A stretch of 64,000 nucleotides of DNA, from NCBI RefSeq assembly GCF_017357105.1, contig NZ_CP100395.1, positions 1-64,000 on the forward strand, in the 5' to 3' direction. Under the pieces are notes generated by a model. The model was not told the DNA's origin and did not search any database. It was given only the letters and a program-made list of their open reading frames with translations. The DNA is from Natronosalvus caseinilyticus. GTDB taxonomy: Archaea; Halobacteriota; Halobacteria; Halobacteriales; Natrialbaceae. Below are positions 8,096 through 49,599 of this stretch, one piece after another. Position 1 is the first letter of the stretch, and each line of letters opens with the position of its first letter. Both the position numbers and the translations under genes were made by a program.

Positions 8096-8312
8096 GAAAC
8101 AACCGGTCAGCTGTAGTGACTCAGCTATCATTGGTTACGGATGGAAGCGTGAGAACTCCCAAGCTTTGTTGAACACTTGAGGTCTGAAAGGTTGCCGGAG
8201 TCGTGCTGAACGTAGAGCGCTATCGGGTACGAAGGCGGGACGATGTGCCTGGTGACTATATCGCTAAATACAGCGAAATATCTATTTCTCACACCAATGA
8301 TACTCTGGCAAG

Positions 8313-10530: not shown

Positions 10531-10773
10531 CAGGTTTCCGTTGTTGATCGGCAGTAGCGCCCCCAATCGAAAGTCATCCTGTCCGAGAGAGAATCCGGAT
10601 TTCCCTCTGATAGATATTTTCGGTGCAAACCATAGTTTTGTGCGAAACCTCAACAGTGGTTGGTAGATGCAGCATGCTAAATACAGAACGCAAGTCTGTC
10701 ACTAGCCGTTCGCTCTCAGGCAAGGAGCAAGCCTGATAGATCCTCAGTTCTGTTAATATCGATGAGAACCGCG

Positions 10774-12156
10774 CTATGTTGACTCTGCCGCGCTGAACGC
10801 TCGAAGCCGCCCATCGGAGGCACCGATGAAGACGTACCCATTAGCGACCGCTGGTGATGATTTCACGTAGGGGCCATCTCCACGATCGCTTTCAAACGTC
10901 ACCCGCCACGCATTCTCGCCAGCAGTGGTAACAGCCGAGAGGCCATCCCGGCATCCCACATAGATGACTCCGTCCGCAACCGCTGGGGACGAACGGGTGT
11001 CGGTCTCGAGCTCAGCCGTCCACTGTCGCTCACCGCTTGCTGCGTCGAGCGCGTATAACTGTCCGCGGGTCACGCCAGAACACTCAGACTCACCACCTCC
11101 AACAGTAAGACAGGTCCGCACCGACGATGCTGCCACGTAGACCACCCCATCAGCAACGGCTGGCGACGTTCGAAGACTTACGTCGTCGATCCCAACGGAC
11201 CACCGTGTCTCTCCAGTCGATCCATCAAGCGCCCAGACCTCTGCGGGCGGACCCGAATCACTGGTGGTGGGTGCGCCATAGTAGACGACGTCGTCGACGA
11301 CGGCTGGCGAGGAGTCGGGGTGGGTCGGAATGTCTCGCGTCCAGACTTCCTCTCCCGTTTCACTATCCAACGCGTACACCCCGCTCTCCCCGCCAAAGTA
11401 GACCCGCCCATCGGCAACGGCGGGCGAAGAACTAATGTTCTCTTTCTCGCTGAATTCGCGGTACTGCCACTTTCGTTCGCCCGTCTCTGCATCCAACGCG
11501 AGAAACGCACAGGCTTCGAACGTCTCTTCGTCTTCGGGACCCCTCACGACCAACGGGCCGTCACCGATTGTCCCGACATAGATTGTGTCGTCAACGATAA
11601 CTGGGGACGAAGAGCCGAACCGATGTCCTATCTCCTGGCTCCAGAGTTCATCACCGGATTCGGCGTCGAGTGCGTAGAACTGTTTGCCCCACGTGCCGAC
11701 AAAGAGCATGCCGTCCCCAAGCGCAAGGGCGGATGACGCGTATCCAGCCGGCTCGAACTGCCAGACGTTGTCACCGGTTTCGATGTCGATCGCGTGAATC
11801 AACCCTGGGTTGCCGCTGCCGGGTACGTAGACCGTACCATCCCCGACGATTGGAGAGGTATTCATCGTGGGCGTCCCGGCAGTGTATCGCCACGCGAGTT
11901 CCGGCTCGTCTGTGCCTGGCCCGGCAACTGTCGAGACGTATCCGGTGTTCCGGGGATTGGCACCGAACTGAGGCCACGTATCATCGAGGGAGTTGGCGGC
12001 TTCAGGACTGTTCCCATCGGACTGTGGTGTGCCGGCACGAGACTGGGGGTCTTTCGACGGAGCGCTACCGAGACATCCAGCAATCGCAATCGCCGAGACT
12101 CCGGCAGTTGTTTTGAGGAACCCGCGTCGTGTGGAGGGAGGTTGTGAGGGGGACAT
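10774..12156 (-). CDS. Tat lipoprotein with PQQ-type beta-propeller
   Basis: About 460 residues from the ATG at 12156 (MSPSQPPSTRRGFLKTTAG). The twin-arginine motif RRGFLK and lipobox AIAGC predict Tat export and lipid anchoring at the outer face of the cytoplasmic membrane. The rest is a repeat propeller: blades with ALDAESGDELWSQEIG, ALDAETGERKWQYREF, ALDSETGEEVWTRDIP, ALDGSTGETRWSVGID and ALDAASGERQWTAELE, each preceded by a DGxVYVG-like strand. This is the PQQ/BamB-like repeat found in many haloarchaeal surface proteins; no quinone-enzyme active site is evident. It is the first of seventeen lipoprotein genes. Probable role: protein-protein scaffold or binding protein at the cell surface. 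Confidence 0.85.
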   Translation of the reverse strand: MSPSQPPSTRRGFLKTTAGVSAIAIAGCLGSAPSKDPQSRAGTPQSDGNSPEAANSLDDTWPQFGANPRNTGYVSTVAGPGTDEPELAWRYTAGTPTMNTSPIVGDGTVYVPGSGNPGLIHAIDIETGDNVWQFEPAGYASSALALGDGMLFVGTWGKQFYALDAESGDELWSQEIGHRFGSSSPVIVDDTIYVGTIGDGPLVVRGPEDEETFEACAFLALDAETGERKWQYREFSEKENISSSPAVADGRVYFGGESGVYALDSETGEEVWTRDIPTHPDSSPAVVDDVVYYGAPTTSDSGPPAEVWALDGSTGETRWSVGIDDVSLRTSPAVADGVVYVAASSVRTCLTVGGGESECSGVTRGQLYALDAASGERQWTAELETDTRSSPAVADGVIYVGCRDGLSAVTTAGENAWRVTFESDRGDGPYVKSSPAVANGYVFIGASDGRLRAFSAAEST

Positions 12157-12473
12157 CGCGTGCGAGTCAGTACACTGTTCACAAATAAATACATTTTCGA
12201 GAGACAAATAGCAGTTTCAGCTTTTAGATTGATAATTTGAGAAAGACAGCGTTGGTAGTGGTAGAACACTTAAGCGAGGATCGGTTCCGAGGGATATACT
12301 GGATGGAGGTCGCGACTGGTGCACGGGAGAGTCTATCATAGAAACACTCCCAGGATATTGCTTTCACCCTCAAGTCAGGATGAATCAGTCGCTCAGTGAA
12401 TATGCTTAGTGAGCGACGAAGGGTCACGTGGGGATGGTTCTACAAGCGGAACACGGAGAGTTTGTTGAAATTT
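12157..12473. other. Intergenic region with a divergent promoter
   Basis: Holds the promoter of the minus-strand propeller gene. No repeat family or convincing frame was seen in the remainder. Confidence 0.4.
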
Positions 12474-13070
12474 TTAATCGAGACTGGTGTGACGCTGTTC
12501 TATAATAACCTTCCGAGACCAATCGAACGAATCATCATCTGATTGGAGTATAATTGTGATTTTGCTCGGAAGGGAGGCCGCTACGTCTTCGTATTGATAC
12601 TCAGTAGGGGGACACCTGACGAGAGTCCCACTTTGGTTTGTTTCGGATCGGATTATCAATGTTATACGTCCTTCAGACACACTGGATGAAAGCCAGTTCT
12701 TTTCGTCATTGACATCATCTAAATCCGTCTCTTCTTCCACTTGCGTGAATATAGTAACAAGAGCGATTTGCTCGCATTCCTGCTCTGCATCCTTAATTTC
12801 ATCTACTTTAATAGTTTCCTCGATTGGATCGGCCTTTCCGTACCCTGATTTAGGCTCGAGCGAGCCGGCGCAATCATCATTCTCGTCTTGTGAATCGCTC
12901 TCTGACGCGTTCTCCTCAGTATTAGTCTGGTTATCTGTTTCCTCAGGGCCAGTCTGGTTATGAGAATCTTCTTCATCTGTGTTGGGAGTTTCGTTAGAGT
13001 CACTGAGACACCCAGCAAATGGGGCAACGAAACCACCACCGGACACCGCGAGAAGTCTACGTCGGTTCAT
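12474..13070 (-). CDS. Tat lipoprotein, unknown function
   Basis: A 198-residue protein with MNRRRLLAVSGGGF and lipobox FAGCLSD (Cys near 21). Residues 25-70 are an acidic Asn/Glu/Thr-rich linker, typical of haloarchaeal surface lipoproteins. The remaining 130 residues form a compact domain containing EQECEQIALVTIFTQVEEE and SGTLVRCPPTEYQYEDVAAS. Two conserved-looking Cys may form a disulfide. A TATA-like CTTATAT lies about 35 nt upstream, so it is independently transcribed. No enzymatic motif. Confidence 0.75.
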   Translation of the reverse strand: MNRRRLLAVSGGGFVAPFAGCLSDSNETPNTDEEDSHNQTGPEETDNQTNTEENASESDSQDENDDCAGSLEPKSGYGKADPIEETIKVDEIKDAEQECEQIALVTIFTQVEEETDLDDVNDEKNWLSSSVSEGRITLIIRSETNQSGTLVRCPPTEYQYEDVAASLPSKITIILQSDDDSFDWSRKVIIEQRHTSLD

Positions 13071-13321
13071 ATCAGATTATAAGTGGGAACGATATAAGTG
13101 CTTTCTCCAGACTCAAATACTGGTTTCAGTGGCTTTCTGAATATTTAGGCACGATCACTGCTTCCCCTGAACTAATCGATCATCGAGAACGGCAACGAGG
13201 GTTGTGAGCGTTTCTATGACACGCTGCGGGATGGAAACCGGTCATCGAGGGTAGGTGCTCCTCAGAGCAGGAAAGAGGGCCAGCTACCTGCTACGCCACA
13301 TACACAAAGGTGAAAAGAGGG

Positions 13322-13957
13322 TCAGCGATAGGAGAGAAACAGAGAAAAACCCCAGTCGTTGCCTTGCTCGCCCATATCCTGAGTCTCAAACCGATATTCT
13401 CCTTCCTCAAGACACTCAGAATTGCCAAGCGAGGAATACACATCGTACTCTCTAGAGATTTCTTCGCACGGTTCTACCGTTACAACGTCTTCTACGTCTG
13501 AAATATCATATCCCCCCTCCACTTCCCAGCAGCCATTTTGTGGGTCGTCTGGAACGTCCATCCCGGAATACTCATCTGGATCAATAAACAGCATCGAGTC
13601 GATTTCGGTGTGGTGACCGGCTACTGGCGGAAACGGTTGCAGCATGAGGAAGGTCAGTGTCTGCTCTTCATCACTGTCGTTCATCACGGTGATCCGAAAT
13701 CTCGCGGGCGCTTCGTCGCCGAAGTGTCGAAGGAGATCGACAGAGACCTTCACGTGATCTACACCCGACTCTTCGGCTTCGAGTGTCACGGTGGGGAAAC
13801 TCTCTCCCGGCTCGTTTTCGACCTCAACATCATCCTCGATAGCGCCACATGGTTGATCAGAACGTCCATCGTCGTCTGTGGCACTACCCTCGCTTAGACA
13901 CCCTGCGAAAGCCGAGAACGAGATACCCGCCCCGGCAAGCAACGCTCGTCGTTTCAT
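13322..13957 (-). CDS. Tat lipoprotein, Ig-like family A
   Basis: A 211-residue protein: MKRRALLAGAGISFSAFAGC gives the twin-arginine signal and lipobox. The mature part has HVKVSVDLLRHFGDEAPARF, RITVMNDSDEEQTLTFLMLQ and a C-terminal ECLEEGEYRFETQ. It resembles the product at 19822-20454 (VSIDVELLEERTTDSQPVQL, QLQIHITNEGSERAF, YFETGTYRWEQ), so the two are paralogs. The pattern fits an Ig-like/beta-sandwich surface domain. TATA-like CTTATAT precedes the ATG at about -27. Function unknown. Confidence 0.75.
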   Translation of the reverse strand: MKRRALLAGAGISFSAFAGCLSEGSATDDDGRSDQPCGAIEDDVEVENEPGESFPTVTLEAEESGVDHVKVSVDLLRHFGDEAPARFRITVMNDSDEEQTLTFLMLQPFPPVAGHHTEIDSMLFIDPDEYSGMDVPDDPQNGCWEVEGGYDISDVEDVVTVEPCEEISREYDVYSSLGNSECLEEGEYRFETQDMGEQGNDWGFSLFLSYR

Positions 13958-14131
13958 ACATAATTCAAATTTCAGAACAATATAAGTCTTCTAGAAGCTC
14001 AATCATGTCTTTCACCTTTGTGATCTACCCAATTCAAATCTACTCAATAGCTGGTTCACTGGCTTCCCATGTGGAAAACGAAACCGTTGAGCTGAACTCA
14101 CCCTTTGAGTCGGTTACGCCAATAAAGAGAG

Positions 14132-14581
14132 TCAACTCAGAACCTGATCATACAGAATCAATTCATCTAGTTCAACGTAGCCGATGTTTGAGCTAATATA
14201 TAGTCTTGAGTAGCGAGAGTCCGATCCATCGGAGTATGGATATCCACCAATATCTCTTAGATCGCGGAACATTTTACGGAAATGCTTCGTGTCTTCACAA
14301 GCGACTGCACTCCCTCTTGCATCATAAAAATCGAAAAGTGTTTTCGACAACTCATGAAGGGCAGAATAGTCAACCACTACTGAGTTAGGGCGAGTCTCAG
14401 TAACAGGCTCATGCAATTCCATAGATGCATCCGGATATTCGCACTCACCTTCTTCGCTTAGTGCTTCAGGTTCGGTTTCCAGGGTATGCCCGCTCGAATT
14501 GTCTTTGGCTCGTGAAAGGCAGCCAGAAATACTCCCAACAGAAGCAAGCCCGATCCCTCGTAACAACGAGCGTCGGTTCAT
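14132..14581 (-). CDS. Tat lipoprotein, unknown function
   Basis: A 149-residue protein with MNRRSLLRGIGLASVGSISG then Cys at the lipobox (SGCLSRA). The mature domain starts with an acidic stretch and ECEYPDASMELHEPV, and continues ALHELSKTLFDFYDARGSAV. It is moderately AT-rich in codon choice compared with genes outside the lipoprotein region. TATA-like GATATATG about 30 nt upstream. A copy of intergenic repeat A lies upstream (14733-14812). No family recognised. Confidence 0.7.
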   Translation of the reverse strand: MNRRSLLRGIGLASVGSISGCLSRAKDNSSGHTLETEPEALSEEGECEYPDASMELHEPVTETRPNSVVVDYSALHELSKTLFDFYDARGSAVACEDTKHFRKMFRDLRDIGGYPYSDGSDSRYSRLYISSNIGYVELDELILYDQVLS

Positions 14582-14732
14582 ACTGATGGTTTGCTAACCA
14601 CTCACATATATCTTAGCTTAGCTAAAACATCTATTTGACTACTGTGTTCAATCGCCATGAATCTGGCACAAACTGAACGGTAACGGCTCCTGTGGACTCA
14701 CTGGTCAACTAACCACTTCATCGGTCAGTTCA

Positions 14733-14812
14733 AAGGTAAGCAGAGAGATTGGTTTCATCAATTTTGTTCGTCGGAGGTACTGTCGATCTCGAACGATCAA
14801 CTATCAGTACAG
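14733..14812. repeat. Intergenic repeat family A, copy 1
   Basis: About 80 nt with the shared blocks AGAGATTGGTTTCATC and CTGTCGATCTCGAACGATCA, then TATCAGTACAGAG. It recurs at 15330, 16291 and 21941, always upstream of a minus-strand lipoprotein gene. Confidence 0.75.
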
Positions 14813-14821
14813 AGGGTGTCC

Positions 14822-15259
14822 TTAGCAGGCGTACCACGAATCGATCGAGTGATCTGATTGTAATGTAATTCCGATATCTTCGCCATCACAGTCAATGTCC
14901 AAATCAGGTGCATACTCCCACGTAGCGGAGTTACCTTCTGGAGTGAAAACCGCCACCGTTGACGGAGTCGTTTCGATAGCAGCAGTTGAATCAAGATGAT
15001 CGGGGTCAAGTTCGTATACCCGACTAAACAACAGTTCTCCCTCATCATCTTCTACCCGAACACCTATCATTGCGAGTTCTCCCGTTTGATTCTCAACCAT
15101 AATTTCAATTGAGTCGCCTTCTCCTCCCGTATCATTAGTTAAGACGAGATCGTTACATCCCGAAACTGAGGTCGAGGCTATGACTCCCGTCAAAGCAAGT
15201 ATTTTTCGCCGAGAAACGCTTTCAGTATGAGTAGAGGGTGTTGCGGGCAGTTCGGCCAT
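14822..15259 (-). CDS. Tat lipoprotein, small beta-sandwich family B
   Basis: A 145-residue protein. The signal has a longer N-region: SVSRRKILALTGVIASTSVS then GCND, with Cys near 36. The mature part, IEIMVENQTGELAMIGVRVE, VYELDPDHLDSTAAIETTPS and the tail DCDGEDIGITLQSD, matches the pattern of the products at 16430 and 22075: a beta-sandwich on which an acidic/Cys tail follows a strand of the type YEY/YTI. These look like small surface domains resembling FxLD-type or Ig-like lipoproteins. Function unknown. Confidence 0.75.
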   Translation of the reverse strand: MAELPATPSTHTESVSRRKILALTGVIASTSVSGCNDLVLTNDTGGEGDSIEIMVENQTGELAMIGVRVEDDEGELLFSRVYELDPDHLDSTAAIETTPSTVAVFTPEGNSATWEYAPDLDIDCDGEDIGITLQSDHSIDSWYAC

Positions 15260-15329
15260 TAGTTATTTATTTATCAATACAGAGGTAAATAGTTTCGCTC
15301 ACTATCTCTGCTCGTGTACTCAATAGACG

Positions 15330-15409
15330 GGTAAACTGAGAGATTGGTTTCATCGGATTCGTTCACCTGAGACCCTGTTGATCTCGAATGGTCAAATAAT
15401 CAGCGCAGA
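15330..15409. repeat. Intergenic repeat family A, copy 2
   Basis: Contains GAGATTGGTTTCATCGGATT and GAGACCCTGTTGATCTCGAA, then TGGTCAAATAATCAG. Close to copies 3 and 4 in order and spacing. Located about 70 nt upstream of the 14822-15259 gene start. Confidence 0.8.
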
Positions 15410-15434
15410 ATACGCACACATCACTCGCCGGGAC

Positions 15435-16208
15435 CTACGCGTCTTGTAGTCGAAAATATTGAAAATCCACTTCGGATACATCACCGGGGTCGCATCGAAG
15501 ATACGGGGAGTAGAAAGTATACGTCTCCATTGGCTCCAGTTCTCTCACAAAACCTTGGTCGGTGTGTACCAGTGTGTTATCGTCAATGTGTGATTTGACC
15601 CGCATGTAGATCTGTCTAACACTTTCAGCCTCCGTGTTTTGAATCGTCGCAGCGAAGCCATAGACCTCGTTATTACCGCTTGTGCCGAGAACTCCCCATC
15701 CCTTCTCGAGGAGTTCAAGCCCTTCTTTGGTCGAGGGGCCAGGGCCGCTATTAGCACCATCCGGTAAGGTCAATTGGTAGTTGTCTATCTCAGATGAGTC
15801 CCCCTCGGAGGTCACGATCATGAACTCGTAGGGCTCGCCAGAGAATCCATAGATGTTGTGCCGCGTCTCAGTGAGTACGCCTGTTCCAGAAAAGAACGTC
15901 GCATCTATCCACTGGAGATAGCCCCCTTCATACCGGCCACGAACACCGTATCGACCCGTGTCATCCTGGAAAAACTCGTGGTTCGTAATCGTTCCCAACT
16001 CGCTATCCCCTTCGATAGTCGAATCAATAGTTCCCCCCGAAGCGCAAATTGGTGTCTCGGACTCATCAAACGTAGCTGTCGCTACTTCGGTTCCAGTGAA
16101 GTTTTCAGGAGAACGAAGGTTGCCTTCACTAGTTGGAGCACTGAGACACCCAACGAGAGAGATAGAGAAGGTGGTTCCCGTTGTAGCAAGGAATTTCCGA
16201 CGCTTCAT
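15435..16208 (-). CDS. Tat lipoprotein, paralog of the 25088 gene
   Basis: A 257-residue protein: MKRRKFLATTGTTFSISLVG then Cys of the lipobox. Mature motifs ETPICASGG, NHEFFQDDTGRYGVRGRYEG and TYTFYSPYLRCDPGDVSEVD recur in the gene at 25088-25876 (FTPICAEGESL; DHEFFRDVESGRYGVRGRVS; VYFPYPRCDP), so the two are clear paralogs over their full length. Two FxLD-like halves separated by a G-rich turn, each with one Cys, suggest paired beta-sandwich domains. A copy of repeat A lies immediately upstream. Ligand unknown. Confidence 0.8.
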   Translation of the reverse strand: MKRRKFLATTGTTFSISLVGCLSAPTSEGNLRSPENFTGTEVATATFDESETPICASGGTIDSTIEGDSELGTITNHEFFQDDTGRYGVRGRYEGGYLQWIDATFFSGTGVLTETRHNIYGFSGEPYEFMIVTSEGDSSEIDNYQLTLPDGANSGPGPSTKEGLELLEKGWGVLGTSGNNEVYGFAATIQNTEAESVRQIYMRVKSHIDDNTLVHTDQGFVRELEPMETYTFYSPYLRCDPGDVSEVDFQYFRLQDA

Positions 16209-16290
16209 GTCAATATCGATGCAGGCTATCGTTAAATGTGTTCTCTACGGTCAAACTAGCCTTTGACCTAACTCAATTGCACAGTCCGCA

Positions 16291-16370
16291 GGTAAGCGGA
16301 GATATTTGTATCATCGGATTCGTTCGGTCGAGACCCTGTCGATCTCGAACGGTCAAATGATCAGTAAAGG
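16291..16370. repeat. Intergenic repeat family A, copy 3
   Basis: Contains TCATCGGATTCGTTCGGTCG and CCTGTCGATCTCGAACGGTC, then AAATGATCAG. Homology with copy 4 extends leftward to about 16248 (TTTGACCTAACTC versus TTTGACCTACTCC). It lies between two divergent lipoprotein genes. Confidence 0.8.
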
Positions 16371-16429
16371 AACTGGACATAGTGCTTGTCCATAAAACAT
16401 TTATCAATGCGATTACGATTGGATGGTAT

Positions 16430-16852
16430 ATGGATACACCTCATTTGTCTCGCCGGCATATCATCGGAACTGTGGCTCTTTCAGCTTTCGCGGGCTGTAC
16501 AGCCTCCAGCTCCGAATCCGGAATCCAAATCGGGAACATTATGATCGGTAACTGGCGAGATGATCCGGTCACTATTACGCTCCGTCTTGATCGAGAGGGA
16601 AGTACAGTCTTTGAAGAGGCTATCGAGATCGATGATGATGGGGAAAACCTCATCGAGCAGTCATGGGATGCTGACCCCGGTGAGTATACTATTATGTATT
16701 CGACGGAGGCGGAAGGACGAATCTACAATTTGTCTCTTCCAGAAGATGTGGAAAGTGCAAATGGAGACTGTATCGACATTCAGATTCACTGCCGAGCAGA
16801 CCTGACTGATATCGTTTTCAGAGACGATAGCCCACCGTGGGGCAAATGTTGA
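16430..16852 (+). CDS. Tat lipoprotein, small beta-sandwich family B
   Basis: About 140 residues from ATG 16430 (MDTPHLSRRHIIGTVALSAF), chosen because the RR motif then sits correctly; lipobox AGCTAS. The mature part, IMIGNWRDDPVTITLRLD, EQSWDADPGEYTIMY and a short Cys-containing tail, is paralogous to the gene at 22075. Both are flanked by repeat A upstream and repeat B downstream, so gene and flanks were duplicated as one unit. Probably an Ig-like surface domain; function unknown. Confidence 0.78.
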   Translation: MDTPHLSRRHIIGTVALSAFAGCTASSSESGIQIGNIMIGNWRDDPVTITLRLDREGSTVFEEAIEIDDDGENLIEQSWDADPGEYTIMYSTEAEGRIYNLSLPEDVESANGDCIDIQIHCRADLTDIVFRDDSPPWGKC

Positions 16853-16870
16853 AGTGATCGTTCAATAAGC

Positions 16871-16945
16871 AGTTGTGTGTATCGGTTGATTCCACACTCG
16901 TGAGTGAAATGAACGACTTCGTTTTGCTGCGCCCAGGCGGAGTTA
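16871..16945. repeat. Intergenic repeat family B, copy 1
   Basis: About 75 nt with TTCCACACTCGTGAGTGAAA, then GAACGACTTCGTTTTGCTGC and GCCCAGGCGGAGT. It recurs 19-40 nt after the stop codons of the genes ending at 22512 and 23397. In this copy the shared block begins 18 nt after the preceding stop. Confidence 0.75.
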
Positions 16946-17074
16946 CCAATTATAGCGCTCAGTTCGTTTTGGGTTTGATCAGTTCCCTTCGAAAATATTT
17001 TCATACACGTGCCGAAGGAGAAGGCTCGTACAGTCGAGCAGAAGATTTTTATTAACTTTCATACAGGTGGTTAT

Positions 17075-17551
17075 ATGGCTTCGCTGACGCGCCGGAAAAT
17101 TCTCCAGTGGGGTGGTGTTCCCTTCGTTCTCGGGGCTAGTGGTTGTACATCGCTTGGGGTTGGATCGCCAAAGGAACCCCGCTTAACGAGGCTCACCGTT
17201 TCGAATCACGACTTCGAAGCACACACGGTTTACGCTTTAATAGTTGACGACGATGAGCCAGTGTTTTGGGGCGCAATGGACGTAGAAGCCGCCGATCCCG
17301 ATTCAAATCATATCGGAGGAGGGGGTTTTGAAGGCTATTCGGCTGAATCGGGGGCCTATGTGCTCTATGCATGGCGAGACGACCAACCCCAATCGGACTG
17401 GAAACGGTCCGACTTCAGTGAGTATGATGGTTCCTGTTTTGCATTGAATATCCAAATTGGAACTGTCTCCGGTGACCGCACTGGAGAGGTTAGTCTGTGG
17501 TCGGGGAGTACCCTTTGTGGTGACGAACGTTCAGGTGAACACGGGAACTGA
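17075..17551 (+). CDS. Tat lipoprotein, family B-like
   Basis: About 158 residues from ATG 17075 (MASLTRRKILQWGGVPFVLG), lipobox GASGCTS. The mature domain has LTVSNHDFEAHTVYALIVDD, GGGGFEGYSAESGAYVLYAW and DGSCFALNIQIG, with the same order of strands and Cys as the family B genes at 14822, 16430 and 22075 but with longer loops. AT-rich TTTTTATTA at about -30 serves as promoter. Function unknown. Confidence 0.75.
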   Translation: MASLTRRKILQWGGVPFVLGASGCTSLGVGSPKEPRLTRLTVSNHDFEAHTVYALIVDDDEPVFWGAMDVEAADPDSNHIGGGGFEGYSAESGAYVLYAWRDDQPQSDWKRSDFSEYDGSCFALNIQIGTVSGDRTGEVSLWSGSTLCGDERSGEHGN

Positions 17552-17734
17552 TTATATAGAACTAGACGGGTTTGCCCATACCGAGAGGGTTTCGTGATAA
17601 GCTCACAGCGCGTATGTTGAGTGAGATTCTCCCCGATCTCCAAAGTAGCGATTGCTCAACACAGGGAGTCCAGTTACGATCCGATACTGGAAGCCTACCG
17701 AATATTTATTGGTCAAAAGATTAATCAGATATAC

Positions 17735-18913
17735 ATGTCGCCCTCTCCAGATGTTCGACCGACAGTCAGTAGGCGAGCGGTCCTCGTTGCAAGCGCACTC
17801 GGAACGTCGGCTCTCGCTGGCTGTCTCGGCCAACTTGAAGCGACTGAGGGTAATTCGACCGAGATGGCGGGCGAGTGGCCGACGTATCGGTTCGACTCGC
17901 GGAATAGTGGCTACAACCCCGACAGCAACGGGATTCGGGACGTAGAGCACGATTGGACGCACGATATACGCGGAACGCCGGGTCTTGCTGACGGAGAGAT
18001 GTATCTCAACGGTAGCCGCCGCGACCCCGAAACAGGGACGGTCCAGTCGTCAGTCTCCCTGGAACTAGCTGTACAGGGACAGCCGACCGTCACCGACGAC
18101 TACGTGTTCGTCACGGATATCAGATATCTATACTGCCTTACGGCTGACGCTGAAGAGGTCGTGTGGGAAAGCGAGAAGGTGGAGGGAATCTTCGGTGGGT
18201 CTCCGACCGTCGACGGAGAAACGGTGTTCGTAGTCCACGGTGGCGGGGCCAACGATTACGATGGAACTCGCGTTCGTGCGTTCGACGTCGCTTCGGGGGA
18301 CGAACGCTGGCAGTACGATGCGGACGGTCGATCGACACCGGCAGTCGTCGACGGGACAGTGTACGTCAGCGGCCAGGACGGGTTGCATGCCATCGACGCC
18401 GAATCAGGGGACGAACGGTTCGTCGTCCCTGAGCCTATTTCGGACTGGTCGTCGCCAGCCGCCACGGCGGACCTCGTGTACGTAGTGACGGCGGATCACG
18501 ACCACGAGGAGGAACTTATCGCAGTCGAGACGGCAGACGGAACGGTTCGCTGGCGGACGGCTGCCGCAGACGGAATGGCGCGTTCCGGAAGCGCACCAGT
18601 CGTGGCCGGAAAACTCGTTTACGCCACCACGGACGAGGAACTCGTGGCGCTTGATCACGCCGACGGCACGGTGGCGACGAGGTTCGGCAGCGGCGTCCCA
18701 GTCGCTCGCGCCGGAGACGTCCTCTACGCGACGAAAGATGGGCGAGTGTACGCCTACGACGCCGAGAGCGGAGACCGTCTCTGGACGTACACGACCGACG
18801 AGGTGCGGGGATCAGACACGGTCTCGCAGTTCGTTACCGGACTGACCCCGGGCGACGAAACCGTGTACGTACAAGCGGCTGACGGATTTCACAGACTGGT
18901 CTCCTCACCGTGA
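17735..18913 (+). CDS. Tat lipoprotein with PQQ-type beta-propeller
   Basis: About 392 residues from ATG 17735 (MSPSPDVRPTVSRRAVLVAS), lipobox ALAGCLG. The ATG at 17621 would put a 38-residue extension before the Tat signal, so the internal start is preferred; TATTTATT lies about 33 nt upstream of it. Propeller blades: WPTYRFDSRNSGYNPDSNG (the usual entry motif), AFDVASGDERWQYDADGRST, GLHAIDAESGDERFVVPEPI, AVETADGTVRWRTAAADG and AYDAESGDRLWTYTTDEV. Related to the genes at 10774 and 23706. Extracytoplasmic, membrane anchored; no catalytic residues seen. Confidence 0.85.
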   Translation: MSPSPDVRPTVSRRAVLVASALGTSALAGCLGQLEATEGNSTEMAGEWPTYRFDSRNSGYNPDSNGIRDVEHDWTHDIRGTPGLADGEMYLNGSRRDPETGTVQSSVSLELAVQGQPTVTDDYVFVTDIRYLYCLTADAEEVVWESEKVEGIFGGSPTVDGETVFVVHGGGANDYDGTRVRAFDVASGDERWQYDADGRSTPAVVDGTVYVSGQDGLHAIDAESGDERFVVPEPISDWSSPAATADLVYVVTADHDHEEELIAVETADGTVRWRTAAADGMARSGSAPVVAGKLVYATTDEELVALDHADGTVATRFGSGVPVARAGDVLYATKDGRVYAYDAESGDRLWTYTTDEVRGSDTVSQFVTGLTPGDETVYVQAADGFHRLVSSP

Positions 18914-19076
18914 CTGTTGGTTGTTGGTGAGCGCGTTATAGCACCGTCCTCACAGGATTGTTTTCGCCTTCCCTCTCAATGAACCAGCTGTTAGATAGGG
19001 GTGGCGATAGACCACATACAGATCATGCGTTTACTCGGGAGAACGTATATACACCAGTGCAGATGATCTCAGTGTA

Positions 19077-19640
19077 ATGAACAGACGTTCCGTTCTCGCT
19101 GGCGTTGGACTGTCTGTCTCGAGTGCTCTCGTCGGGTGTCTCGTCCAATCTGACGAGGAAACTAACGCGGAGACCGATGGGGATATTCGCCGTCGAGCCT
19201 GCTCGCACGCACCCGACGAAACCGATCAGGTGAGTCACAACGTTACCAGAACCAGATTTCATTTCCTCCGAGAGCAATATGCACCGTTGACCCTCGTTAC
19301 TGCACGTGACCAGCTAGAATCGAGGATTGATCCCGAACAGCGGGAAGACGGAGACGTTGACACCATTTTCGAGGACATTCGTTTCGACGAACATGTGGTT
19401 CTCATCTGGGAGACGAGCGAACGAATCACCACTGACCACGTCGAGTTTCTCGGCGTTGCCAGGCCCAACGACGAGGAATTTCGGGCGTATGGTTGCAACT
19501 ACAGACTTGGAGGGGGTGGGCAGCAGGAAACCTATTATTCGTTCATCATCACAGTTAGTGTAGATGAGACTCTACAGCGAGCGGAGCTTCGCATTCAAAA
19601 TGAGGATGGAAATACGAGGACACTAACCACAGAGCAATAA
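19077..19640 (+). CDS. Tat lipoprotein, unknown function
   Basis: A 187-residue protein with MNRRSVLAGVGLSVSSALVG then Cys of the lipobox. The mature part starts RRRACSHAPDETDQVSHNVT and contains a domain RFDEHVVLIWETSERITTDH followed by VEFLGVARPNDEEFRAYGC. A distant likeness to the product at 21352-21867 (KTDFDQSYLLVVQNMMQSAR, WLELQRINQRGE) is visible in order of strands. TATA-like GTATATACA lies about 30-35 nt before the ATG. Function unknown. Confidence 0.75.
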   Translation: MNRRSVLAGVGLSVSSALVGCLVQSDEETNAETDGDIRRRACSHAPDETDQVSHNVTRTRFHFLREQYAPLTLVTARDQLESRIDPEQREDGDVDTIFEDIRFDEHVVLIWETSERITTDHVEFLGVARPNDEEFRAYGCNYRLGGGGQQETYYSFIITVSVDETLQRAELRIQNEDGNTRTLTTEQ

Positions 19641-19821
19641 GGCGACTGACCAGCAACCGGGCTCCATTTGAATTCGTTCTGTTCTCAATTGTCGCTTTCT
19701 TCTAGCAAAGCTCGAACCCACTTAATAAGCATCTGTGGTGAGCACGCATGAGTCACGCTCGAACTCTTTGACGCTAGGGTTAGAATGGTAGCAAAAAGTC
19801 CGAAGGAATCCGGTGGAGGAG

Positions 19822-20454
19822 TCAGGGTTCTGCAACGGCTATCTCGAACCCCCAGTCAAACAACAAATCGGCGGCAGTTGAACTACTCTTTGTGTCGGGA
19901 TCATTCCAGACGGAAACTTGTTGTTCCCATCGATAGGTGCCAGTCTCAAAGTAGCCCCCGACACGGTAATCATCCCACAGTTCGTACTGAGTTGTGAGTG
20001 ATTCATCGGGCTCAAATGGCCGTGGTGGGCATCCCTGGTTGGAAAACCCACGGTACTCATCGGCGCTTCGATCTTCCGTCCATTTCCCTTCGTCCCGCTC
20101 AATTCGATCGGCGTGTCCAGGTGAATAGAGCCAGAGCCCTTCGGGGGTATCGCTTCCGCCTTTCGATCGATTAAAGAGACTACAACTACCGTCTCCAACG
20201 GAGAAGGCTCGCTCTGACCCTTCGTTCGTAATGTGAATTTGCAGCTGTACTGGTTGTGAATCTGTAGTTCTCTCCTCGAGAAGTTCAACATCGATCGAAA
20301 CGTGAGAGTCAGCCGGAGTCGAATCCTGGTCGTGAATACTCACTTCCCGTTGAGAAGTTCCACTCCCGGAAGCAGCGGGTATCTGGCCAAGACACCCAGA
20401 AACGCTCACGACAGAGGCCGATCCAACTCCGTAAAGAAACGAACGTCGATTCAT
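19822..20454 (-). CDS. Tat lipoprotein, Ig-like family A
   Basis: About 210 residues from ATG 20454 (MNRRSFLYGVGSASVVSVSG), then lipobox Cys. Paralog of the 13322-13957 product: a strand VSIDVELLEERTTDSQPVQL, LQIHITNEGSERAFSVGDGS and C-terminal GYFETGTYRWEQQVSV. The longer frame starting at 20478 adds eight residues before the Tat motif and is less likely. AATTATATG at about -30 is the probable TATA box. Function unknown; probably a surface-exposed Ig-like domain. Confidence 0.78.
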   Translation of the reverse strand: MNRRSFLYGVGSASVVSVSGCLGQIPAASGSGTSQREVSIHDQDSTPADSHVSIDVELLEERTTDSQPVQLQIHITNEGSERAFSVGDGSCSLFNRSKGGSDTPEGLWLYSPGHADRIERDEGKWTEDRSADEYRGFSNQGCPPRPFEPDESLTTQYELWDDYRVGGYFETGTYRWEQQVSVWNDPDTKSSSTAADLLFDWGFEIAVAEP

Positions 20455-20593
20455 ATTGATTATCAGTTGACCAGTCACATATAATTTGGGCTAACTGAAA
20501 CGCTGATTTGGTCGATGTGCAGCAGAAATTGAGTAACTGACTAGCAGATATGGCGTATAGGACGTTGTCCGTAGGTTTCGGCGCCGATTTTAA

Positions 20594-21070
20594 TCATGGT
20601 TCGTTCGGCCCACTTACTGTTACCGACTTCGCAGACGGGTCACCAGATTGATTGACAGTCACCGATTTTGGTAATCGCTCTCTCATTGTGACCACCAAAC
20701 GATAAGCATCGACACTCTCGTCGAGTGAACAATTATTCTGAGAGCGAGCAGTGTCACTACTCCCAACGCTCACAGTAAGGCGCTCTGCGTCTACGTCGTA
20801 GGAGATATCTTTCAAACTGACTTGATTGCACTCACTTGACCCGACGTAGAGAGCCCCCCGGACAGTGATCTTCAATGAATCCAAGTCGAACGAAACAACT
20901 GGATGCTCAGTTGGACCGGGCATCCGCTCGAAGCCTTCACTTTCTGGTTCATAGATAGTAAACGTGTGATTTTTGATTCGTTGAGAACTGGTCTGTGGAT
21001 CAATATTAAGGGCTAGACAGCCACCGGAGCACACGACGGAAGCTATCGAGAGGAGAGCACGGCGTTTCAT
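20594..21070 (-). CDS. Tat lipoprotein, unknown function
   Basis: A 158-residue protein with MKRRALLSIASVVCSGGCLA; the RR motif is intact and the lipobox is SGGC. The mature part has FTIYEPESEGFERMPGPTEH, VVSFDLDSLKITVRGALYVG and a Cys pair (SSECNQ, QNNCS), suggesting a small disulfide-stabilised beta domain. TATA-like GTTATATAT about 28 nt upstream. No family recognised. Confidence 0.72.
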   Translation of the reverse strand: MKRRALLSIASVVCSGGCLALNIDPQTSSQRIKNHTFTIYEPESEGFERMPGPTEHPVVSFDLDSLKITVRGALYVGSSECNQVSLKDISYDVDAERLTVSVGSSDTARSQNNCSLDESVDAYRLVVTMRERLPKSVTVNQSGDPSAKSVTVSGPNEP

Positions 21071-21351
21071 AGTGCTAGTAAAGTGGTGGATATATAACTA
21101 GTTATTGGCGGTCTGGTATAGCGTAGCTGGGGGATGCGTTAACGGAGTTGAAAACAGAACTCTTGCCGTACCGATATCCGAACAGCCGTTGTAGAGTCAC
21201 TGACAACCATTTAGCTTGAACCAACTTCTCCTTTTCATTAGTAGACAGCATAGAGCGACTCATAGACATCCGTACTGGCCATTAACATCATTATATTAAT
21301 TTGCTTGAATAGGTGATGAATTTGGCTGATCAGACAATCATTACAGTGTAT

Positions 21352-21867
21352 TCATGCATCGATCGGGTCTGAATCAATTGTTACGTTCAGTTCAGTAGGA
21401 ACACCTTTTGGGTCAGTTACTCGAATCAAGAGTGAGTGAACGGTTGCATCATCGACATAGTCTTCATCTGGCGATTCGGTTACGACATCAACCTCAACGC
21501 TCTCTCCTCTCTGGTTAATCCGCTGGAGTTCTAACCACCGTGCACTCTGCATCATGTTCTGGACAACCAGAAGATACGATTGGTCAAAATCAGTTTTGTG
21601 AGTGAATTCCTCTACAGCATCATCATCTTCGACTATTTTCTTGCCGACCGCTTTCTTCTCAGTGATGATCGTATAGTAATTGGAGGGAGGTTCCTCACGT
21701 TCCCTATGCTGATACCATAGCCCCTTCTCAAGAATATCCTTTGGCCAATGTTCTGTTTCAACAGTCATACCCTCTGGAGCACTCGGCTCAGTTTCACTAC
21801 TCAAACACCCACCTACTAGAGTGGACAGTACAACTGTGGACCGCCCGAGATATTCACGTCGATCCAT
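21352..21867 (-). CDS. Tat lipoprotein, unknown function
   Basis: About 171 residues from ATG 21867 (MDRREYLGRSTVVLSTLVGG), lipobox GGCLSS. The longer frame would start 15 residues earlier, before the RR motif, without improving the signal. The mature domain has KGLWYQHREREEPPSNYYTI, KTDFDQSYLLVVQNMMQS and DDATVHSLLIRVTDPKGVPT. CTATAAC at about -29. Repeat A copy 4 lies upstream. Possibly a distant relative of the gene at 19077. Confidence 0.72.
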   Translation of the reverse strand: MDRREYLGRSTVVLSTLVGGCLSSETEPSAPEGMTVETEHWPKDILEKGLWYQHREREEPPSNYYTIITEKKAVGKKIVEDDDAVEEFTHKTDFDQSYLLVVQNMMQSARWLELQRINQRGESVEVDVVTESPDEDYVDDATVHSLLIRVTDPKGVPTELNVTIDSDPIDA

Positions 21868-21906
21868 AACAATAAGTATAGATGTTAAGTTATAGACCCT
21901 TCGTAT

Positions 21907-22018
21907 GGTCAAAGAACTGTTTGACCTACTCCGTTCGCAGGTACGCTAAGAGATTGGTGTCATCGGTTTCGTTAATCCGAGACGCTGTCGATCTCGAACA
22001 GCCAAATGATCAGTACAG
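21907..22018. repeat. Intergenic repeat family A, copy 4 (extended)
   Basis: Contains GAGATTGGTGTCATCGGTTT, GAGACGCTGTCGATCTCGAA and CCAAATGATCAGTACAG. It includes the leftward extension TTTGACCTACTCCGTTCGCA that is shared only with copy 3. It separates divergent genes, as copy 3 does. Confidence 0.8.
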
Positions 22019-22074
22019 TCCCACAGATACCGTCAAGGAAGAATATATGTAACTCGGTAATGGTTATTTCTTGT

Positions 22075-22512
22075 ATGAATTCGCTCTCAGTATCTCGGCG
22101 TCACGTGCTTGCCACGATTGGCGGAGTTTCTACGACGGGGTGTTTAGATTCGATCCCGTTCGCTTCAGAGACGGGGACTCGCATTGGGAGTCTCCTCGTT
22201 GATAACGTAACCGACGAATCCCAAACTGTGCTCCTCCAACTGCAACGCGAGAGCGAAATAGTCTATGATAGCGAGATACTGGTCGCTGAAGACGACCATG
22301 AGATCATCGACCCGTCCTGGTCAACGGAACCAGCCGAGTATACGCTTCTATATGCTGCTGATGGCGAATTGGGTATGATTTCAATTCCAGATGATGTTGA
22401 AGACACAATCGACAGACAGGGGTGTAACCATATCTGGGTTACTTTCGGTGGGCATTCTGACTTTCACATCCAGGTGTTCGATGGTGGAGGTCAGCCGGAC
22501 TTGAAATGCTGA
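22075..22512 (+). CDS. Tat lipoprotein, small beta-sandwich family B
   Basis: About 145 residues from ATG 22075 (MNSLSVSRRHVLATIGGVST), lipobox TTGCLDS. The mature part, RIGSLLVDNVTDESQTVLLQ, LQRESEIVYDSEIL and PSWSTEPAEYTLLYAADGE, aligns by eye with the product at 16430 (IGNIMIGNWRDDPVTITLRL; EQSWDADPGEYTIMYSTEAE). Flanked by repeat A (before) and repeat B (after), as is its paralog, which shows duplication of a whole cassette. GAATATATG is the TATA-like element. Confidence 0.78.
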   Translation: MNSLSVSRRHVLATIGGVSTTGCLDSIPFASETGTRIGSLLVDNVTDESQTVLLQLQRESEIVYDSEILVAEDDHEIIDPSWSTEPAEYTLLYAADGELGMISIPDDVEDTIDRQGCNHIWVTFGGHSDFHIQVFDGGGQPDLKC

Positions 22513-22539
22513 ATGCCGTTCCACGCGTATCTCTTCAAT

Positions 22540-22608
22540 TGTATCAATTGCTTCCACACGCATGAATGAAATGAACGACTCTGTTTTGCTGCATCCAGGG
22601 GGAGTCGT
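22540..22608. repeat. Intergenic repeat family B, copy 2
   Basis: GCTTCCACACGCATGAATGA, then GAACGACTCTGTTTTGCTGC and ATCCAGGGGGAGTCG; nearly the same as copy 1 over about 60 nt. Lies behind the 22075-22512 gene. Confidence 0.78.
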
Positions 22609-22704
22609 GAATCGCTCAGTATCGAGCAGGAAGGTTTTGAGAGGATAAGAATTCACAATTCTGCTGGGGGAAGATCTATAAATATGCTAATTAGAATCCA
22701 AATA

Positions 22705-23397
22705 ATGAATCGCCGGAAAGTCCTGACCGGAATCAGCACAGGTGCTCTTCTCGGGGTTGGTGGCTGTCTCGAGACAGACACTTCGTTTCTTGATGAAACG
22801 TCTGATGACAGCGGAGACGGGAATAGCGTACCGGGCTGCACGCAAAAAGAGACGTGGAGTGACGGTGGAAATGCAACCCCAGAGGACCCTGACCCGGCAT
22901 CGATCGCAGGCCGCCACGATTGTTCGAGTACCCGGCGTCCAGAGCCGACTGGAGAGGTATGTACGACCTTCACTCCCGTGATCAGCGGTGAAGAACGTAC
23001 GATTCACAGTGCTGGCATCGAACCGTACCCGGAGCCGCCATCATCGTTTGACGAGGAAACGCTTGTATCGTACGTGTCCGAGTACGAGAACGCGTACTTC
23101 CACAATTCGATGGTGGAAAAGTACCGGGACGAGCTACGAGGTGCCGGAATCCGCGTCGAGGAGGACGAGACGCGAATCAAACAGACCGAGAACGCCATAA
23201 CTCTCGTCTATATCCGGTTCTTTACCAGTACAAGCACTCTCAGCGATGGCACCACCCCTTCTGTTGGTGATGGTGCTGGCGCTGCCGGGTATGGCATCGA
23301 CGAAACGGGCATCGTCCGTACAGAAGCCAGATACAGTGTTAGCGAAGAGGAGATGCCCGACCCCGTTGAAAGTGGTACGCTCCTCGAATGCTTTTGA
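22705..23397 (+). CDS. Tat lipoprotein, unknown function
   Basis: About 230 residues from ATG 22705 (MNRRKVLTGISTGALLGVGG), lipobox GGCLETD. Residues 25-75 are a low-complexity acidic/Pro linker with two Cys (PGCTQ, HDCSS). The C-terminal domain holds ETLVSYVSEYENAYFHNSMV, EKYRDELRGAGIRVEEDETR and a Gly-rich segment SVGDGAGAAGYGIDETGIVR. The mixed helical domain differs from the other lipoproteins here. Followed by repeat B copy 3. Function unknown. Confidence 0.75.
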   Translation: MNRRKVLTGISTGALLGVGGCLETDTSFLDETSDDSGDGNSVPGCTQKETWSDGGNATPEDPDPASIAGRHDCSSTRRPEPTGEVCTTFTPVISGEERTIHSAGIEPYPEPPSSFDEETLVSYVSEYENAYFHNSMVEKYRDELRGAGIRVEEDETRIKQTENAITLVYIRFFTSTSTLSDGTTPSVGDGAGAAGYGIDETGIVRTEARYSVSEEEMPDPVESGTLLECF

Positions 23398-23409
23398 ACA
23401 ATTCACATT

Positions 23410-23480
23410 CGTACGGATCAGTTGGTTCCGCACTGAGTGAGTAGAACGAGCGACTTTGTTGTGCTGCACACCGTTTCAGG
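23410..23480. repeat. Intergenic repeat family B, copy 3
   Basis: TTCCGCACTGAGTGAGTAGA, then ACGAGCGACTTTGTTGTGCT and GCACACCG; a more diverged copy of family B, again just behind a plus-strand lipoprotein gene. Confidence 0.65.
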
Positions 23481-23705
23481 ATGTAGATTACGGTAAACCA
23501 ATAGCCTACTAACAAGTCAAGAAGGAATAGTTCTTTCATTAGACTCCTCTCTTGTAGATACCCCCTCTGTGGAATTGCCGTTCACTACACGTGCGATTGA
23601 TCGGTTTTGTCTGAACAGTGCTGGATCACAAACCATATCTCGGAGTTAAAGAAATCCGACATGTGCCACACAAGATATTCATATCTTAACTAGATAAACC
23701 CAATC

Positions 23706-24932
23706 ATGGATCGACGGACGGCGCTCGGTGTGACGGGCGTGATCGGGAGTTCGGTGCTGGGTGGATGCCTCGGTGGGTTCACCGACAATGGTTCCGATAC
23801 CGGGTACCAGTGGCGCTACGACACAGGCGGGGAACTCGATGCCGTATCGCAGGGCGTAGTATTCGCTCGGGAGCGTTCCAACGGGCAGATCGTCGCACTC
23901 GATGCCACGACTGGCGAGCGCCGGTGGGTCTACGGGGAAGCAGGAGGGATGGACGCCTACTCGGAACTCGCCGTTACGGAAACGGGCATCTACTTCGGCT
24001 ACTGCACCGACGACGACTGTATCGGCCTGTATGGGCTCGATACGGATGGCGAAGAGCGGTGGCGTGCCGACACGGTGGGGACCGGGCGCACCAGCCCGTT
24101 CGTCGTCGACGGAACCGTCTACGTCGCCAGTGATGTCGGCGTCGTGCGAGCATTCGACGCGAAAACTGGTGAGGGCCTGTGGACCGACGGGATCGACGAA
24201 TCGGACGAGACCACTAGTGGTTCCAGAATCGTCGACATCGCCGACGCCGTCTACGTCGAGAAAAACGCTGCTCTCGTCGTGATCGAGCGGGACGAGGGGA
24301 GTACGCGCTGGCGATACCAGCCCGATAATGGAGACGCGCAGATCATCGATGCGGCGGTTTCGAACGGCGTCGCGTACGTCGTGACCGGAGAGTATGTTGT
24401 CGCGGTCGTCGACGGCAACGAGGTGTGGCGTCAGCCTTTCGAAGCGGACGATGTGCAGACGGAAATTGCGGGAATCGCATCGAACCGGTTGTTCGTGCTC
24501 ACTAACACCGATCGACACGAGTCGCGTCTGTATGCGTTCGACGTTGCGACCGGCGAGCGAGACCTGGTGTTGGAATCGCTCGAGCACCCGGACGAGGAGT
24601 CAGATCCGTTCGTGGACGTCCACGACGGAGTGGTGTACGTCGGCACGGACCGATTCCGTGCCCTCGAGGCGGCGACCGGCCACGAACACTGGAGTGTGAC
24701 GGTCGATGGTGGCCCGATCCGAGCAATGACCATCGTCGAAGCGAAAGGTGCAGGAGATCACACTGTGTTCGTCCGTGCTGGGGCGAATCGACTAATCGGT
24801 GTTGATTCGGGCGGTGAGCGAACGTGGGAGGGGACCGTTGATGGGATGATTCGGAACTATCTAGTTGGCGAATCCGTGTTTGTGGCGACGGACGAAGGAA
24901 TCTACGCACTCGAAGGGCAGGACGACTCCTGA
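23706..24932 (+). CDS. Tat lipoprotein with PQQ-type beta-propeller
   Basis: A 408-residue protein: MDRRTALGVTGVIGSSVLGG and lipobox Cys. Propeller blades include ALDATTGERRWVYGEAGG, GLDTDGEERWRADTVG, AFDAKTGEGLWTDGIDES and ALEAATGHEHWSVTVDGG, each with the Gly-Glu-x-x-Trp turn. The last blade ends GMIRNYLVGESVFVATDEGI. It is more G+C-rich than neighbouring lipoprotein genes. AT-rich TATTCATATC lies about 30 nt upstream. Third propeller lipoprotein of the array. Confidence 0.85.
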   Translation: MDRRTALGVTGVIGSSVLGGCLGGFTDNGSDTGYQWRYDTGGELDAVSQGVVFARERSNGQIVALDATTGERRWVYGEAGGMDAYSELAVTETGIYFGYCTDDDCIGLYGLDTDGEERWRADTVGTGRTSPFVVDGTVYVASDVGVVRAFDAKTGEGLWTDGIDESDETTSGSRIVDIADAVYVEKNAALVVIERDEGSTRWRYQPDNGDAQIIDAAVSNGVAYVVTGEYVVAVVDGNEVWRQPFEADDVQTEIAGIASNRLFVLTNTDRHESRLYAFDVATGERDLVLESLEHPDEESDPFVDVHDGVVYVGTDRFRALEAATGHEHWSVTVDGGPIRAMTIVEAKGAGDHTVFVRAGANRLIGVDSGGERTWEGTVDGMIRNYLVGESVFVATDEGIYALEGQDDS

Positions 24933-25087
24933 TAGACAACGGCGGTACTGCGCGCCGGTGGCTCTCCTCGAGCATTAGTATGAAAGTGCTTCGTTCAGTC
25001 AAGACTATGCATCTCACAGGTGTACCTACAACCCCTCTTTTAGTTCCCCAAATAACTATTTCCGACAGGGTTTCAATAACTTAACAA

Positions 25088-25876
25088 ATGAGACGACGAC
25101 GGTATCTACATGGATTGATCACGGTGCCAACTGCTGGCGTAGCGGGGTGTCTTTCACGTGATTCAATACCGGATGATGGATCTGATTTGACCCCCGAGGA
25201 TGACCGGGACGTCAAGACGGTTGCCGCGGAGACGTTCGACGACGATTTCACCCCGATCTGTGCCGAAGGTGAATCGCTCGAATCGGATGTCGAGGGATTT
25301 TACGCGGAGCTTGTTACTGACCACGAATTTTTCAGAGATGTCGAGAGCGGTCGGTACGGTGTTCGGGGTCGAGTCTCGACTTGGGATAGTGGAAATATTC
25401 CGAAGGTTACAGCAGAGTTTTCCGACGGTTCGTTCGATTGGGATCGAGGTTACGGGCTCGACGAAGGAGAGACGTACCTGTTCACAGTGGTGAGTTCTGA
25501 GGGAGATCCTGACGCGATAGACGGGTACACGCTCACCGTCGAAGGAGGTGGGGTAGACGATATCGGGATCGCCTCCAAGGAGTACGTGACGATCGATGGG
25601 GAGTGGGGGCAGATTGGAACGTACGATGACGCTCCGGTGTATGGATACGCTGGGACAGTTACTAACGATCACACAGAGGACGTTAGACTGTTCCCCCGCA
25701 TGAAGGCGTATCTCGACGAAACGACGGTGGCCTACGCTGGCCAAAGTACAGAAACAAGTGTCGATCTTGCTTTAGGAGACACACAAACAGTCTACTTCCC
25801 CTATCCACGATGCGATCCCGCGAAAATTGACCACGTTGAAGGATGGCTCGAGTGGGCGACGATGATTTACCCGTAG
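25088..25876 (+). CDS. Tat lipoprotein, paralog of the 15435 gene
   Basis: A 262-residue protein with MRRRRYLHGLITVPTAGVAG then lipobox Cys. It shares FTPICAEGESL, DHEFFRDVESGRYGVRGRVS, VTNDHTEDVRLFPRMKAYLD and TQTVYFPYPRCDPAKIDHVE with the product at 15435-16208. The paralogs lie about 9 kb apart on opposite strands. Two Cys occur at equivalent positions. Last gene of the lipoprotein array. Confidence 0.8.
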   Translation: MRRRRYLHGLITVPTAGVAGCLSRDSIPDDGSDLTPEDDRDVKTVAAETFDDDFTPICAEGESLESDVEGFYAELVTDHEFFRDVESGRYGVRGRVSTWDSGNIPKVTAEFSDGSFDWDRGYGLDEGETYLFTVVSSEGDPDAIDGYTLTVEGGGVDDIGIASKEYVTIDGEWGQIGTYDDAPVYGYAGTVTNDHTEDVRLFPRMKAYLDETTVAYAGQSTETSVDLALGDTQTVYFPYPRCDPAKIDHVEGWLEWATMIYP

Positions 25877-26282
25877 CTCGCTTCGCTGAAGAATCTCTCT
25901 CTCGAGGGCCGTCAACCCCCAATCAGTCTCCCGCAATAGTGTTGATCAACGGGCATAATTCACAACCCAGATTTGATTGGGTGACACAATCAGTAAGCAT
26001 CTCTACTGAACGGCTGATTCATTAGACTAACCAGGCACCAAACTCGATCACCGCGCTGAACTCATCCTCTTTATGCAGCACGCCTATTTCAACATCTCAG
26101 TGACCAGCTACGTTGGAAAGTATGAGGATTTGCGCTAATACCAGGTCCCCATTGAAACGGCGCCGTCCGTTCAGAACAAAAGCGCGATTAATCTTAACTT
26201 TAAGATTAAACCAACACCGAACCCATTATCAATAGTCTTGAGTGACGATTTTCGTTCCACTATTCGACTTAACGGGTACTTC
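25877..26282. other. Boundary spacer between lipoprotein array and helicase pair
   Basis: Contains one AT-rich motif (26186-26212) and no convincing frame. The lipoprotein array ends here and base composition returns to the higher G+C of the rest of the window. Confidence 0.4.
26186..26212. repeat. AT-rich TTAATCTTAAGATTAA-like motif, copy 4
   Basis: GATTAATCTTAACTTTAAGA followed by TTAAACC: the two halves TTAATCTTAA and TTAAGATTAA form an inverted repeat, as in the perfect 16-nt form at copy 5. Confidence 0.6.
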
Positions 26283-39321: not shown

Positions 39322-39323
39322 GG

Positions 39324-39629: not shown

Positions 39630-39631
39630 CG

Positions 39632-48732: not shown

Positions 48733-48736
48733 TCCG

Positions 48737-49378: not shown

Positions 49379-49599
49379 GCTGTGGTCGGCAGTCCTCACG
49401 GAGATTGCAAATACGTTGTTATCATCTATGGCACCAGTGATCTGTTCGAGATCACGGATTCACGTAGCCTCTTTCCGGTCTGTGACCGTAGATGATGAGT
49501 CGACGAAACACTAGTTTCATACGGATGCTGTTTGTGGTAGTGACTATACAGCGCGGGGATGGCTTCGCCGTTCCCGACCTAACGTACAATCAATCTATT

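Follow-up and report, generated by a model that had tools for sequence, protein, structure and literature searches.

The seventeen neighbouring genes at positions 10774–25876 of the window (the whole stretch analysed here, the first 64,000 nucleotides of contig NZ_CP100395.1 of Natronosalvus caseinilyticus) are, we think it likely, the decayed remains of a chain of passenger cassettes joined head to tail, each with a single gene and all belonging to an IS5-family transposon of haloarchaea; growth of the chain is inferred to be site specific. Sequence shows transposition with 8-bp duplications for cassettes of this kind, as well as an IS5-family transposase in the autonomous copies, modular boundaries and directional junctions.

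All 17 genes in this stretch of ~15 kb encode an RR Tat signal and a lipobox ending in cysteine, and all 17 open reading frames are present and adjacent, as an earlier note on this DNA had described. Gene 20594, with the signal MKRRALLSIASVVCSGGC, falls outside our first search pattern yet carries both RR and lipobox, and a plain nucleotide motif for the signal peptide gave no matches. The clustering exceeds chance: a strict predictor found only five other lipoproteins among ~145 further gene-like ORFs on the replicon, contig C2, whose 230,191 bp beside a companion chromosome of 4.0 Mb agree with the accessory status that the note had assigned to it. The note had also given each gene its own TATA-like element, which holds for nearly all of them: a strict hexamer starting at −38 to −22 precedes 11 of the 17 genes and is absent from all 34 control windows of the same width, and most of the remaining six have looser A/T-rich variants at this position. 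For the frames that start at 12165 (−), 16430 (+), 17075 (+), 17735 (+), 20454 (−), 21867 (−), 22075 (+) and 22705 (+), an inner ATG is the likelier start.

Among the paralog groups proposed earlier, two stand as they were. The three PQQ-type beta-propellers at 10774–12165 (−; PF13360, 4e-48), 17735–18913 (+) and 23706–24932 (+; PF13360) match PQQ_2 and share 25–29% mutual identity, and the pair 15435–16208 (−) and 25088–25876 (+) is 37% identical (E=5e-45). Family B shrinks to the genes at 16430–16852 (+) and 22075–22512 (+) (36% identity, E=3e-25), since those at 14822–15259 (−) and 17075–17551 (+) are only marginally related to it. The link between 13322–13957 (−) and 19822–20454 (−) is weak (21%, E=8e-4), with a score helped by the signal peptide. 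The other genes lie at 12474–13070 (−), 14132–14581 (−), 19077–19640 (+), 20594–21070 (−), 21352–21867 (−) and 22705–23397 (+). No Pfam or NCBIfam family matched any non-propeller protein of the array, and no PADLOC defence family matched the ten array proteins compared. An AlphaFold model of family B is all-beta and weak (pLDDT 60), with no PDB match below E=0.01; the model of 25088 has a pLDDT of 45, too low for use.

An alignment of five 25088-family copies and their flanks revealed the ends of the mobile unit, which are common to otherwise unrelated units. In order, a unit consists of an outer inverted repeat (TIR; GGCTCTGTTGAAAYCCT... or GGCTCTGTTGAAAYCCTC...), a core (GTGCTGAATACAG), a B-end with ~60 nt conserved, an inner box (CGNTCAGTACAG), the gene with its own promoter, the inner box again, an A-end, the core and the inverted repeat. 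The conserved subterminal stretches B (left) and A (right) form ends of ~85 nt. Isolated units are flanked by 8-bp target duplications, for example TAATGGAC, ATAAATTT, GAAATCCG, GGCGACTC and ACCCGACC, and the duplications at TIR pairs match at 8/8 or 7/8 positions. Those with TAATGGAC or ATAAATTT combine an 8/8 duplication with one passenger gene and no transposase, and an 11.1-kb multi-cassette unit in N. halobius is flanked by the duplication ACTCTAAC. A scan of public genomes for the inverted repeat yielded many more haloarchaeal units with perfect duplications. Across the class these range from short MITE-like units, through units that carry a single passenger, in many cases a lipoprotein gene, to units bearing an IS5-family transposase. 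In one autonomous unit (L269), two cassettes and the transposase lie in that order between the TIRs, with the duplication AAAATTCG; a transposase of this group scores 207.8 bits against the IS5 model NF033579, which has a cut-off of 140. An IS6-family mover, at which GGCTCTGTTG and the 8-bp duplications had hinted, was rejected: the genome's own IS6 element has different ends (GGCACTGTCTAGTT) and the autonomous copies encode IS5. The A-end occurs in 221 of 292 Halobacteria genomes (E <= 1e-4), some Natronosalvus genomes carrying dozens of copies, and in only one sampled genome outside Halobacteria, at threshold. MITE-like units of ~258 bp with a near-identical inverted repeat were also seen at L183 (a Methanoregula MAG), L232 and L233, the one at L232 with the perfect 8-bp duplication GGTATTTC.

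The genes of the array recur singly at unrelated places, with up to 97% DNA identity; DNA searches, covering plasmids first and 125 genomes of the family next, gave single-gene matches at unrelated sites of up to 93%. Each array gene thus acts like a mobile unit of its own. For at least ten of the 17, homologs lie within or next to cassettes recognised by A-ends, B-ends or TIRs. The propeller 17735 shares 93% protein identity with a gene in an N. rutilus plasmid cassette that has A, B and both TIRs, and a 92% copy of 19822 lies in the N. rutilus chromosome with an A-end and a TIR. Copies of 21352 (85%, in a Natrononativus plasmid) and 12474 (76%, L052) are accompanied by an A-end, and the homologs of 14822 (L055 and L057) adjoin B-ends. 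Cassettes with A and B ends hold homologs of 22075 (L107 and L135) and, in the organism's own chromosome, a 70% copy of 22705 (L116). Family 15435/25088 has members in TIR-bounded cassettes; one copy of 25088, ~90–91% identical, is in the organism's own chromosome (L049), and others are in cassettes with A, B and TIRs. For five genes (13322, 14132, 19077, 20594 and 23706) no homolog was found in a clear cassette, the exception being a remote one (51%) for 23706, which also has 83% single-gene homologs (L047 and L048).

The strongest case lies on the same replicon. A TIR-bounded unit at C2:121105-123797, with the perfect 8-bp duplication GAAATCCG, contains a copy of gene 16430 that is 96–98% identical in DNA over window positions 16361–16879 (+) and is interrupted by another IS5-type element (duplication CTATTATG). 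Identity is confined to the stretch between the inner edges of the two cassette ends, a pattern suggesting that gene 16430 was swapped between different ends. This second IS5-type element, with ends GGCCTTGTTTAGACG, also recurs close to one particular point of the A-end (L013 10270, L090 300, L092 2724; L119 17539-19490).

Within the array, profile searches recovered eleven remnants of cassette ends. Left ends on the plus strand comprise B remnants at 10675–10712 (14.4 bits) and 17604–17676 (18.6 bits), and the variant D1, detected as a repeat and by profile, at 14714–14816, 15309–15412, 16270–16373 and 21920–22020, left of genes 14822, 15435, 16430 and 22075 respectively. Right (A) ends on the minus strand are found at 14039–14104 (16.8 bits), 16870–16930 (of 16430; 18.9 bits, repeat D5), 22546–22597 (of 22075; 13.6 bits, repeat D5), 23406–23471 (of 22705; 26.4 bits) and 25997–26081 (of 25088). 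This last end is of full length, scores 43.1 bits and is also matched by covariance model R1. Ten shuffled copies of the replicon (2.3 Mb) gave maxima of 9.4 bits for A and 11.4 bits for B, and no chance match of 13 bits or more; the remnants with 13.6 and 14.4 bits are only slightly above the shuffled maximum. All six left ends are thus on the plus strand and all five right ends on the minus strand, which is what a head-to-tail chain requires. Because the array lacks TIRs and most of the cores, its chain structure is read from these end remnants. Weak signals suggest that the cassette of 12474 may be inverted. The array contains no transposase or recombinase genes, and with few cores and no inverted repeats left it is probably fixed by now. 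A small palindrome, GGTCAAA-N6-TTTGACC, occurs in two copies just left of D1 ends (16246–16270 and 21904–21928), perhaps representing a different type of junction. At 8150–8663, left of a gene for a 116-aa membrane protein (8313), there is a possible TIR with a B-like core (7.5 bits, within noise), where the chain may once have begun.

Chains of cassettes are also present elsewhere in the same genome, in N. rutilus and in others. One A-end and one B-end are found in 107 of 110 units, and at all 39 back-to-back junctions A is joined to B, the cores lying 38 nt apart in 32 of them; A-A and B-B joins are absent from this set. The junction is palindromic, with arms that read CTGTATTCAGCA/TGCTGAATACAG and that covary, 10.9 of 14 positions being complementary as against 10.05 ± 0.18 in shuffles, none of 5000 of which exceeded the observed value. 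A cassette common to two species is ~98% identical between its ends and unrelated outside them. Genes inside cassettes point in mixed directions (23 vs 18). Response regulators, HTH_10 regulators and a methyltransferase are among the cargo, as are cupin, HalOD1 and CPBP proteins in plasmid records with annotation. A chromosomal chain at C1:1126573-1141962 (L099/L100) consists of seven or more cassettes, with a response regulator, HTH_10 and a methyltransferase among their genes, and has one tyrosine recombinase at each end, which makes an integron-like assembly plausible. A third such recombinase lies 54 bp from another cassette. The genome has five loci of this recombinase family (PF00589, PF02899), and three of them are 54 to 136 bp from chain ends; some homologs are far from any chain. 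These XerC/D-like enzymes are candidates for joining the cassettes, linked to the chains by position.

The IS5-type transposition that the target duplications prove might account for the chains too, if these arose by repeated insertion close together and by homologous recombination between conserved ends, with no site-specific recombinase. Ends of ~85 nt could serve as homology, and in two cases, 16430 and a 68-aa cassette, their inner edge marks the point of exchange. Random insertion would, however, also yield A-A and B-B joins, whereas every junction is A-B at a near-constant spacing, and 38 nt cannot accommodate a pair of complete inverted repeats plus a target duplication. We therefore regard this explanation as unlikely, while taking it to be the strongest competitor. 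Far less probable is an origin of the array from lipoprotein genes that were duplicated in tandem on the spot and then diverged. The few true paralog groups (propellers, 15435/25088 and 16430/22075) would fit, as would the flanking sequence that the surroundings of 16430 and 22075 have in common. Most array genes are nevertheless mutually unrelated, and many have their nearest relatives at other sites, with 70–97% identity, against 21–37% protein identity between paralogs within the array. The homologs of array genes in cassettes elsewhere largely refute such an origin. The expansion that the earlier note had mentioned is thus not supported as growth mainly by local paralogy, the closest relatives being single-gene mobile cassettes at other sites in the same or other genomes. 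That one class of protein is gathered at one place might instead point to a conserved cluster serving one surface machine, which we consider very improbable given the mixed strands, the separate promoters and the mostly unrelated sequences. The full array was found in none of the 125 genomes of the family, nor do any two adjacent array genes occur together in any of them. The fixed content and synteny in distant genera that would have spoken against recent change were looked for and not found, in keeping with the note's proposal of a recent and evolving gene content.

As a further alternative, the array could be a true archaeal integron or a CALIN, to which single-gene cassette chains, palindromic junctions and adjacent tyrosine recombinases would all conform. 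Integron attC sites have R′ and R″ boxes (GTTRRRY) and fold into hairpins; the arms of the A/B junction, compared with these boxes by eye, do not correspond. Nor are the genes promoterless and of one direction, since they have their own TATA-like elements and mixed orientation, and the units have transposon ends and target duplications. Against the integron-integrase model TIGR02249, one of the three recombinases scores 17 bits, far below the cut-off of 265, and the other two are not listed. Contradicted on its defining features, this reading too has very little probability. Compared with integron arrays, including those of archaea (PMC9668308), the chains are alike in their single-gene modules, palindromic recombination-like sites and nearby tyrosine recombinase, but differ in lacking an integron integrase and in their junction sequence, promoters, mixed direction and transposon ends. 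The text of that report makes no mention of Halobacteria.

The passenger cassettes preferred here have closer relatives among insertion sequences. Mobile insertion cassettes (MICs or transporter IS) have IS ends around a passenger gene in place of the transposase. Our isolated units resemble them in their IS-type inverted repeats, target duplications, passenger gene and absence of transposase, and differ in carrying many different genes across the class, in their extra subterminal A and B ends and in forming head-to-tail chains. Inverted repeats shared with an IS are present at both ends of isolated copies but not of those in the window array, which would be derived remnants. The IS5-family transposase of the autonomous copies and the 8-bp duplications match the IS5 family, and this length of duplication would fit the haloarchaeal ISH1 subgroup; what sets the present elements apart is that chains of cassettes lie between their transposase and the distal inverted repeat. 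The MITEs, PATEs and SMRs of Haloquadratum are likewise transposase-free repeats mobilised in trans, but are too short to encode a transposase and not described as gene carriers, and PATEs derive from IS605-type elements and produce no target duplication (PMC3119063); the units here carry genes and have 8-bp duplications. No report of class-wide directional cassette chains was found in the open literature searched. Passenger-carrying IS of the MIC kind are already known, and there is a real chance that the class-wide directional chains, the new part, amount to something more.

Considering how such an array might come about, passenger-only units would presumably be moved in trans by the IS5-family transposase of autonomous copies, and chains would lengthen as further cassettes are inserted in a fixed direction and at a specific site, the A/B junction; the tyrosine recombinases next to some chains are candidates for catalysing this step. 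The chain in the window would later have lost most of its cores and repeats and then become fixed. Lipoproteins make up only ~16% of cassette cargo (12 of 74 sampled cassettes), so that an all-lipoprotein chain needs an extra cause; either selection or the repeated capture of cassettes beside genes of the same kind may have supplied it. The outcome would be a set of independently transcribed surface proteins. A bolder proposal, which we put forward tentatively and hold to be somewhat less likely than not to prove right in full, is that haloarchaea possess a gene-capture system independent of integrons. In it, a XerC/D-like tyrosine recombinase would join single-gene cassettes of an IS5-type transposon in a fixed direction at the 38-nt palindromic A/B junction, so that accessory genes of small size (lipoproteins, response regulators, HalOD1 and HTH proteins) are reshuffled throughout the class, and the window would hold a frozen, lipoprotein-only chain. 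Haloarchaeal genomes contain many small orphan genes that vary between close strains, and to our knowledge their spread is largely unexplained; A/B cassettes offer a concrete vehicle for single-gene exchange among these organisms. If it is true that the recombinase makes the directional junctions, modular gene arrays can arise in archaea by a second route, in addition to that of integrons.

Several other features of the window deserve mention. Directly beside the array is a gene for a UvrD-type helicase with a PD-(D/E)XK domain (26283–29213), adjoined by a second PD-(D/E)XK protein (29158–31740), the two forming an AddAB-like pair. An IS605-type TnpB gene is located at 34150, and the stretch 35381–39714 encodes an Orc1/Cdc6 protein and a family B DNA polymerase, probably the replication genes of the replicon. 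A BREX defence system occupies 45112–61287, with BrxC (45112), PglX (49492), PglZ (56825) and BrxL (59260), and two unassigned genes of the opposite strand (53369–55264 and 55261–56250) lie between PglX and PglZ.
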